From an uncultured bacterium (GTDB lineage Bacteria; Bacteroidota; Ignavibacteria; UBA10030; BY39): DNA of 64,000 bases. Location of the stretch: assembly GCA_937967455.1 (NCBI GenBank), contig CALCJK010000012.1:1-64000 (forward strand), read 5' to 3'. The notes below the pieces were generated by a model that saw only the letters and a list, made by a program, of their open reading frames with translations, had not been told where the DNA came from and searched no databases. Shown here piece after piece: positions 30,935 through 62,020 of this stretch (the first letter of the stretch is position 1; the number at the start of each line of letters is the position of its first letter). The position numbers and the translations under genes are program-made.

Positions 30935-31711
30935 TTACCTGTTCATTAAACTTGCAGCAAAACCAGCGCCAAAGCCGTTATCAATGTTTACAACTGTCAC
31001 GCCGGATGCACAGGTATTGAGCATACCTAATAATGCTGCAACTCCACCAAAACTTGCTCCATAACCACCTGAAGTTGGTACTGCTATTACTGGTACATCA
31101 ACCAAACCACCAACAACACTTGGCAAAGCTCCTTCCATACCAGCTACAACAATAATAACATTTGCCTTTGCGATTTTATCGTAGCTGGACATTAAGCGGT
31201 GAATTCCTGCAACTCCAACATCATACAACCTTTCAACTGGATTCCCAAGCATCTCAGCTGTTATACAAGCTTCTTCTGCTACTGGTATGTCAATTGTACC
31301 TGCTGTTACTACTAATATGGTTTTCCTACCCTTAAAAGGTACTTTTGGTTTATTTGCAAATATTATCCTCGCAATTTTATCATATTGTACAATTTTGTTT
31401 TTCTTTTTTACTGCTTTAAAGTGTTCTAAACTTGCTCTTGTAGCAAGGAAGGGAAGTTTTTTCTTCAAAATTCTGGATGCAATAGATGCAACTTGCTCGG
31501 GTGTTTTTCCCTGACAAAAAATTACCTCGGGAAATCCTTTACGAAGTATACGATGATGGTCTAATGTTGAAAATTTTAAATCTTCAGATAAGAATGTTGC
31601 CAAATATTTGGCAATTGCCTTTTTAGAAATTTTACCTGTTTTAAACTTTGTAAGTAAAGTATTTAGTTCTTCTTTATTCAATTTTGAAAAAATTTTTATT
31701 AATATAATCAT
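30935..31711 (-). CDS. larB: LarB, nickel-pincer cofactor synthase (pyridinium-dicarboxylate synthase)
   Basis: LarB carboxylates and hydrolyses nicotinic acid adenine dinucleotide, the first step to the nickel-pincer nucleotide of lactate racemase and related enzymes. The N-terminal half has LDHHRILRKGFPEVIFCQGK, and the C-terminal half is the PurE-like domain with VVAGMEGALPSVVGGL, PTSGGYGASFGG and NIDNGFGAG. The length of 258 residues is normal. larC, larE and larA are not seen in the window. Confidence 0.92.
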   Translation of the reverse strand: MIILIKIFSKLNKEELNTLLTKFKTGKISKKAIAKYLATFLSEDLKFSTLDHHRILRKGFPEVIFCQGKTPEQVASIASRILKKKLPFLATRASLEHFKAVKKKNKIVQYDKIARIIFANKPKVPFKGRKTILVVTAGTIDIPVAEEACITAEMLGNPVERLYDVGVAGIHRLMSSYDKIAKANVIIVVAGMEGALPSVVGGLVDVPVIAVPTSGGYGASFGGVAALLGMLNTCASGVTVVNIDNGFGAGFAASLMNR

Positions 31712-43949: not shown

Positions 43950-43978
43950 TTGACAATAAATTTTTACGGTTGTATATT
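43950..43978 (+). promoter_or_regulatory. consensus sigma-70 promoter of the cold-shock gene
   Basis: TTGACA (43950-43955) and TATATT (43973-43978) are spaced exactly 17 bases apart. Transcription would start near 43985 and give a leader of roughly 208 bases before the csp start codon. Confidence 0.8.
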
Positions 43979-44003
43979 ATATTGTATTTTATGTGTATAC
44001 TTA

Positions 44004-44129
44004 ATGAAAAATGATATATTTGAATTCTGGAAATGTTCTATTTTTACAGAGGGGCAAAAGAAAAATCGATTTGAATATATATGTAAGGACTCTCAGGTAT
44101 TAGTTGTCGCTGTAACCAATTTTAAATAA
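44004..44129 (+). CDS. 41-codon upstream ORF in the cold-shock leader
   Basis: An ATG at 44004 opens a frame of 41 codons ending at TAA 44127-44129, inside the csp leader. The peptide (begins MKNDIFEFWKCSIF) matches no family I know, and no Shine-Dalgarno is seen before it. Its last third covers the 5' arms of both leader stems, so translation could affect folding. A frame this short can also occur by chance in AT-rich DNA. Confidence 0.25.
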   Translation: MKNDIFEFWKCSIFTEGQKKNRFEYICKDSQVLVVAVTNFK

Positions 44130-44158
44130 CAACAACCTGAGATGTCTAGGTTACAGCG
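44088..44158 (+). promoter_or_regulatory. interleaved inverted repeats in the cold-shock mRNA leader (pseudoknot or switch)
   Basis: Stem A: CTCAGGT (44092-44098) pairs with ACCTGAG (44135-44141), extended outside by GAC/GTC (44088-44090 with 44144-44146) and inside by GTTGT/ACAAC (44103-44107 with 44129-44133). Stem B: CGCTGTAACC (44108-44117) pairs perfectly with GGTTACAGCG (44149-44158). The 5' arm of B lies in the loop of A and its 3' arm lies outside A, so both stems together make a pseudoknot; otherwise they are alternatives. The Shine-Dalgarno GAGGAGG follows at 44180-44186. The E. coli cspA leader is a known thermosensor that also refolds through a pseudoknot. Confidence 0.7.
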
Positions 44159-44192
44159 TTTATATAGTAATTTGTTTTTGAGGAGGTTTGTA

Positions 44193-44399
44193 ATGCCAAA
44201 AGGCAAAGTAAAGTGGTTTGATATTAAAAAAGGCTATGGGTTTGTCCAATGGAAAAATGGACAGGATGTTTTTATTCACTATTCTGAAATTCAGACCAAA
44301 GCGAAATTTAAAAAACTTGATCAGGGTGATGTGGTAGAGTTTGATCTTATTCAAGGTAACAAAGGTTTACAAGCCAAGAATGTTGTAGTTGTGAAGTAA
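44193..44399 (+). CDS. cold-shock domain protein
   Basis: Single cold-shock domain (68 residues), an RNA chaperone that binds single-stranded nucleic acid. RNP1 is KGYGFVQW (13-20) and RNP2 is DVFIHY (25-30). The start ATG at 44193 follows GAGGAGG by 6 bases; a longer frame from 44142 would only translate the leader. Unlike most CspA proteins, RNP1 ends in QW rather than TP/EP-type residues. It is monocistronic: own promoter, structured leader and a terminator at 44425. Confidence 0.95.
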   Translation: MPKGKVKWFDIKKGYGFVQWKNGQDVFIHYSEIQTKAKFKKLDQGDVVEFDLIQGNKGLQAKNVVVVK

Positions 44400-44424: not shown

Positions 44425-44466
44425 CCCCGAGGATGCTCAAATGAGCAATCTTACGGGGTTTTTATT
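44425..44466 (+). terminator. rho-independent terminator behind the cold-shock gene
   Basis: CCCCG (44425-44429) pairs with CGGGG (44454-44458), with an inner GAT-GCTCA/TGAGC-ATC stem, followed by TTTTTTATT. It ends the monocistronic csp transcript. Confidence 0.9.
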
Positions 44467-44486: not shown

Positions 44487-44945
44487 ATGAAATACAAAAA
44501 TACTAAGTTTAAAACATTTAATCCTAAAAGCTTATCTATAATTAGAAAAGTATTAAATGCTAAGCTTAAAAAAATTGGAAAGTATTATAGATTTGAACTT
44601 ATAAATAAAGTTGATAAAAGAAAGTTAGCCCTCGAAATTTACCCACAAATTAAGATAGGGAATAAAAAGGGTAATCTGGTAACTGTCTATGCACTCAACT
44701 CTTTGTTACAATTGCATTTTTGCAATGGGTTTATTGTAAGCGAAGAGTTAAATGAAGTAACTTTTATTGGGGAATTCAATGGTAAATTGAGTGGTTTGAT
44801 TGTTGAGAGAGAAGCAGGATGCTCAATTTTTGCTAATGTGGATAAATATATTTTATCAAGCGATTTTACAAAATTAAGTCCAGAAGTAATGATATCTGGT
44901 ATTGCACTCTCTCTGGCAGAAAGTCTGGTAACAACGCGCAAATAA
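44487..44945 (+). CDS. conserved-looking cytoplasmic protein of unknown function
   Basis: Protein of 152 residues, no signal or membrane segment, basic N-terminal third (about 1-50), then a mixed alpha/beta part with VYALNSLLQLHFCNGF, a Glu-rich EVTFIGEFNGKLSGLIVEREAGC segment and a C-terminal helix (SGIALSLAESLV). I do not recognise the family. It has AGGA 7 bases before its ATG and its stop codon directly abuts the ybeY start, so it heads the operon with ybeY, the smg-like gene, topA, xerC, hpf and hprK. A link to RNA or ribosome metabolism is only a guess from context. Confidence 0.65.
   Translation: MKYKNTKFKTFNPKSLSIIRKVLNAKLKKIGKYYRFELINKVDKRKLALEIYPQIKIGNKKGNLVTVYALNSLLQLHFCNGFIVSEELNEVTFIGEFNGKLSGLIVEREAGCSIFANVDKYILSSDFTKLSPEVMISGIALSLAESLVTTRK

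Positions 44946-60391: not shown

Positions 60392-62020
<1,629 letters not shown>

Follow-up and report, generated by a model that had tools for sequence, protein, structure and literature searches.

The 5' untranslated leader of one specific cold-shock gene (csp) has two crossing stems that probably coexist as a conserved H-type pseudoknot. Relatives in at least two phyla retain this arrangement although nearly every letter of it has been exchanged, which makes it very likely that the leader helps to control csp; the best reading is that a csp-specific pseudoknot leader would act in cis on the csp mRNA, on its translation or its stability. The window (the whole 64,000-nucleotide stretch of DNA analysed here) contains the leader and its gene on the forward strand, to which all features below belong unless marked (-).

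A promoter with 11/12 consensus matches (TTGACA-17-TATATT, 43950-43978) precedes csp (44193-44399), which encodes a 68-aa cold-shock protein (Pfam PF00313, E=1.6e-23); the same -35/-10 pair, again at 17-nt spacing, also lies upstream of most related leaders. As a preliminary description of this DNA had estimated, about 208 nt separate the predicted transcription start from the ATG at 44193, and the Shine-Dalgarno sequence (SD) that it noted before csp is GAGGAGG at 44180-44186, outside the pseudoknot. The leader opens with a mostly AU, weakly conserved 5' domain (43985-44090). Stem S1 then pairs 44091-44098 (CTCAGGT at 44092-44098) with 44135-44142 (ACCTGAG at 44135-44141), making 8 bp once T44091-A44142 is counted, while stem S2 pairs CGCTGTAACC (44108-44117) with GGTTACAGCG (44149-44158) and ends 34 nt 5' of the start codon. 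Between the arms lie loop L1 (44099-44107), the A/U-rich 17-nt loop L2 (44118-44134) and the short loop L3 (44143-44148). These are the crossing stems A and B of the preliminary description, found where it had placed them; the extensions it gave stem A (GTTGT/ACAAC) do exist, but only in the window's genus, and are not conserved. A likely intrinsic terminator, read from the sequence (CCCCG...CGGGG and a T-run, 44426-44466) and missed by a simple terminator scan, follows csp. Further downstream, 44487-44945 (+) encodes a 152-aa protein with no match in Pfam or NCBIfam; the same protein trails csp in Ignavibacteria-type genomes and in the candidate phylum KSB1 (54% identity in L025).

We scanned for pairs of crossing helices with H-type loop lengths, scored by stacking energy. 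S1 and S2 were the best crossing pair in the leader, with a summed stacking energy of -35.5 kcal/mol that went unmatched in 2000 dinucleotide-shuffled versions of the leader. With the 64-kb window as a natural-sequence null, they were also the top pseudoknot-like stem pair on either strand, and nothing scored as high except these very stems when the minus strand was read. Pseudoknot-free (nested) folding of the leader region was ordinary (z -1.05), so what stands out is that the stems cross. The runner-up pairs elsewhere in the window, at 31122-31188 and 61599-61668 (-), scored -32 and -28 kcal/mol.

The same order of arms (S1, S2, S1', S2'), followed by 22-35 nt to the start codon, occurs upstream of the syntenic csp across five families belonging to the window's class: f1 (the window's own family), f10, f12, f13 and f20. 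The carriers share the gene order csp, 152-aa gene, ybeY, with a DUF494 gene next in most, indicating that these csp genes are orthologues. In per-leader shuffles, 32/37 leaders of these families reached p<=0.01, compared with 3/141 leaders of other csp genes, 0/24 from other classes and 0/10 from the syntenic csp of families f2 and f5, several of which are visibly short. Two of the five leaders below the threshold (L140 and L142) do have the crossing pair, and miss it because an extra hairpin in L3, between S1' and S2', exceeds the loop limit used; in the remaining three (L037, L144 and L154) the structure is apparently absent. All five genomes of the window family carry a single copy of the leader, directly upstream of csp. 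Since the syntenic csp of f2 and f5, and that of an f10 genus (L037 and L138), do without the knot, csp does not depend on it.

The element is not restricted to the one phylum of which the preliminary description had spoken: six syntenic csp leaders of KSB1 (L238, L247, L252, L254, L255 and L257) have the architecture as well, a weaker set than the rest, with fewer sequences and with the stems of L252 and L254 read by eye. In these members S1 begins near the predicted transcription start, that is, the 5' end of the mRNA. The majority of the other KSB1 leaders examined showed no such architecture. We rejected L227 and L231, whose supposed S1 runs into the -10 box and would be left out of the transcript, and L245, where a stem covers TTGACA. 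L259 of KSB1 (and, less clearly, L258) has a different, nested csp-leader structure, with AACCC/GGGTT around GGAAAATCA/TGATTTTCC. A smaller crossing pair possibly occupies a similar position in three csp leaders of f50, from another class of the same phylum (L206, L210 and L215), with S1 as GTAGCC/GGCTGC and S2 as AAGGC/GCCTT, varying by compensation; singly, none of the three is above shuffles.

Covariation among related csp leaders was the check suggested at the outset, and it bears the structure out, with compensating substitutions in both stems across divergent relatives. Within the window family, the S1 sequence is kept in four leaders and replaced in L005 by ATACTTAGAC/GTCTAAGTAT, while S2 is replaced in L003 and L004 by ATAGTCGC/GCGACTAT and altered in L005 to TGTGACCGA/TCGGTTACA. 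We counted such changes in unsupervised MAFFT alignments and kept the counts within families, since in a pooled alignment of helices that were each found separately compensation would appear as a matter of course. Across the five f1 leaders, 4/8 pairs of S1 are changed on both sides, which 5/500 shuffles equalled. The nine f12 leaders have both-side changes at 9/24 pairs, amounting to 18 cells against 8.2 in shuffles (0/500), and 88% of their cells are paired, against 25-49% when the arms are slid. In f10 (three leaders) S1 is nearly constant, and 8/14 pairs of S2 are changed on both sides (0/500). Leaders L130 and L131 come from two species with Csp proteins that are 98% identical; they differ at four S2 pairs, all fully compensated. 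The seven f20 leaders are 98% paired, with conservation too high for a covariation test. G-U pairs are tolerated in the stems, which points to selection on RNA rather than DNA.

In f12, f13 and f20 there is a third helix (e.g. GYGGC/GCUGC) on the outer side of S2, separated from it by an internal loop of purines (GA/AA); this helix is 96% paired in f12 and has no double-sided changes there. A covariance model of S2 and this third helix, built from f12, recovered held-out leaders of f13, f20 and f1 (L003, E=0.003) at the correct position and, across 294 genomes of the class, gave single matches at csp only. Significant covariance-model matches in genomes were always directly before csp, one each. 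The model of the window family (R1) retrieved none of the other families.

L1 spans 3-17 nt, L2 10-25 nt and L3 usually 0-12 nt; over 29 leaders L2 is 75% A+T, against about 42% in the stems, and it stays A/U-rich even beside GC-rich stems. In f1, f12 and f13 an extra 5' domain of 75-190 nt precedes the knot, and in the window family the knot is 74-106 nt from the predicted start; f20 and KSB1 lack this domain, and there the knot starts no more than about 10 nt from the predicted 5' end.

Crossing stems need not coexist. The preliminary description had left the choice between a pseudoknot and a bistable switch, in which S1 and S2 would alternate and never form together; the stems do cross, and a nested folding program permits only one at a time. 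Alternating helices, however, usually overlap or share nucleotides. Here the four arms are distinct in every lineage, with no base in common, the loop lengths permit both stems at once, and both stems covary. We therefore favour the pseudoknot, the half of that earlier alternative that stands, and consider a switch unlikely. A DNA-level feature, such as operator palindromes that interleave, or inverted repeats arising by chance would be very hard to credit. Operators can take the form of inverted repeats close to a promoter, but arm sequences are swapped with pairing kept, G-U pairs occur, and the knot keeps a near-constant spacing to the start codon and a variable one to the promoter; the shuffle tests, on the window leader and on each leader of the families, argue against chance. 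The knot has a conserved position, in sense orientation between a promoter and genes of a single family, as a cis-regulatory leader would. Several small riboswitches are themselves H-type pseudoknots, but a ligand-sensing riboswitch is very improbable here, given that no nucleotides outside the helices are invariant across families, only a single gene is targeted, and neither a terminator nor an SD-sequestering platform is seen. Counting against the csp-specific pseudoknot leader, the extended S2 of f12 and f13 shortens L1, which makes the three-dimensional arrangement less certain.

How such a leader would act is a separate matter, and the position of the SD bears on it. In the window the SD begins 22 nt 3' of S2, and the start codon too is outside the knot; the SD is thus not inside a regulatory helix, as it is in SD-sequestering thermometers such as ROSE and FourU. 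A conserved anti-SD switch was rejected, as the SD had no consistent complementary partner among 35 leaders. The SD is only partly paired in nested ensembles, and imposing the knot raised its accessibility in 21/30 leaders, a gain that is modest and not universal. In a rough energy model with a fixed pseudoknot penalty of 9.6 kcal/mol, the pseudoknot was in most leaders, between 10 and 55 C, comparable in stability to the nested folds or better, and no clear temperature transition appeared over this range. These results weigh on the proposal, also made in the preliminary description, of an RNA thermosensor, in which temperature would shift the leader between knotted and unknotted folds and turn on csp translation in the cold, as in E. 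coli cspA but by a different structure. The identity of the gene, a leader of 100-260 nt ahead of it, a strong promoter and the similar computed energies of the two folds in many leaders all speak for a thermosensor; the missing transition, and an SD that is in neither stem and has no conserved partner, speak against it, leaving it possible but somewhat doubtful. We are about equally tentative on a protein-bound autoregulatory site, at which Csp or another RNA-binding protein would recognise the knot and repress or stabilise the mRNA. Csp binds single-stranded RNA, including the E. coli cspA leader (PMC9947658), and the persistent A/U-richness of L2 beside GC-rich stems would suit it; no loop sequence motif, however, is common to all families.

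For the csp-specific pseudoknot leader, we propose the following sequence of events. The leader would fold during transcription, placing the knot immediately 5' of the 30S subunit at initiation. There both of its long helices would be kept from base-pairing with the region that the ribosome binds, so that the initiation region stays open, and the knot would also shield the csp mRNA from decay; together these effects would keep the message translatable in the cold. Csp prefers single strands and melts helices. The single-stranded, A/U-rich L2 would be a plausible landing site for Csp or ribosomal protein S1, and binding by Csp would make the leader autoregulated.

Cold-shock leaders are known in detail from few model species. 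The E. coli cspA mRNA is reportedly a thermosensor, as described by Giuliodori et al. in 2010 (Rfam RF01766); a pseudoknot has been described for its leader, which pairs with the coding region and hides the SD at 37 C. The leader described here resembles it in being a long structured leader upstream of a cold-shock gene, with the same place of action, but differs in having a compact crossing pair 5' of the ribosome site and in belonging to other phyla. The Rfam 15 families gave no match to the leader, the window or 20 related loci; RF01766 in particular had no gathering-threshold match in the window or the 20 loci, and was absent from the E<=5 matches in the leader. As far as it can be tested, this upholds the independence from E. 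coli cspA that had been suggested.

Two other RNAs invite comparison. The Chlorobi-RRM motif, to go by its name, presumably lies upstream of small RNA-binding protein genes. It is a conserved Chlorobi RNA listed as a candidate cis-regulator (RF01697; PMC2864571). It is associated with RRM genes rather than csp, and had no Rfam match in these leaders. The alpha-operon (S4) mRNA has a pseudoknotted leader subject to feedback by an RNA-binding protein, and its knot traps the initiating ribosome (PMC7858274), whereas here both the SD and the start codon are outside the knot. In the open-access papers searched, no csp leader of this group is described. It is quite possible, if short of probable, that these leaders form a novel pseudoknotted class, found in Ignavibacteria-type Bacteroidota and KSB1, that senses temperature or its own Csp through a fold unrelated to that of E. 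coli cspA, with a conserved architecture and almost no conserved sequence. If the architecture rather than the sequence has been kept across two phyla, it would represent an independent solution for keeping a cold-shock mRNA translatable. Searches by sequence or by nested covariance also miss RNA of this kind; a model of one family recovers only some of the others.

A further observation concerns the 5' part of the f12 leaders. About 20-35 nt past the predicted transcription start, leaders L140-L152 have a conserved block, ACATATCG, which in several reads TGACATATCGA; in many of these leaders a GGCGC...GCGCC hairpin comes next. The E. coli cold box is UGACGUACAGA, which the ACATATCG block resembles, possibly by chance.
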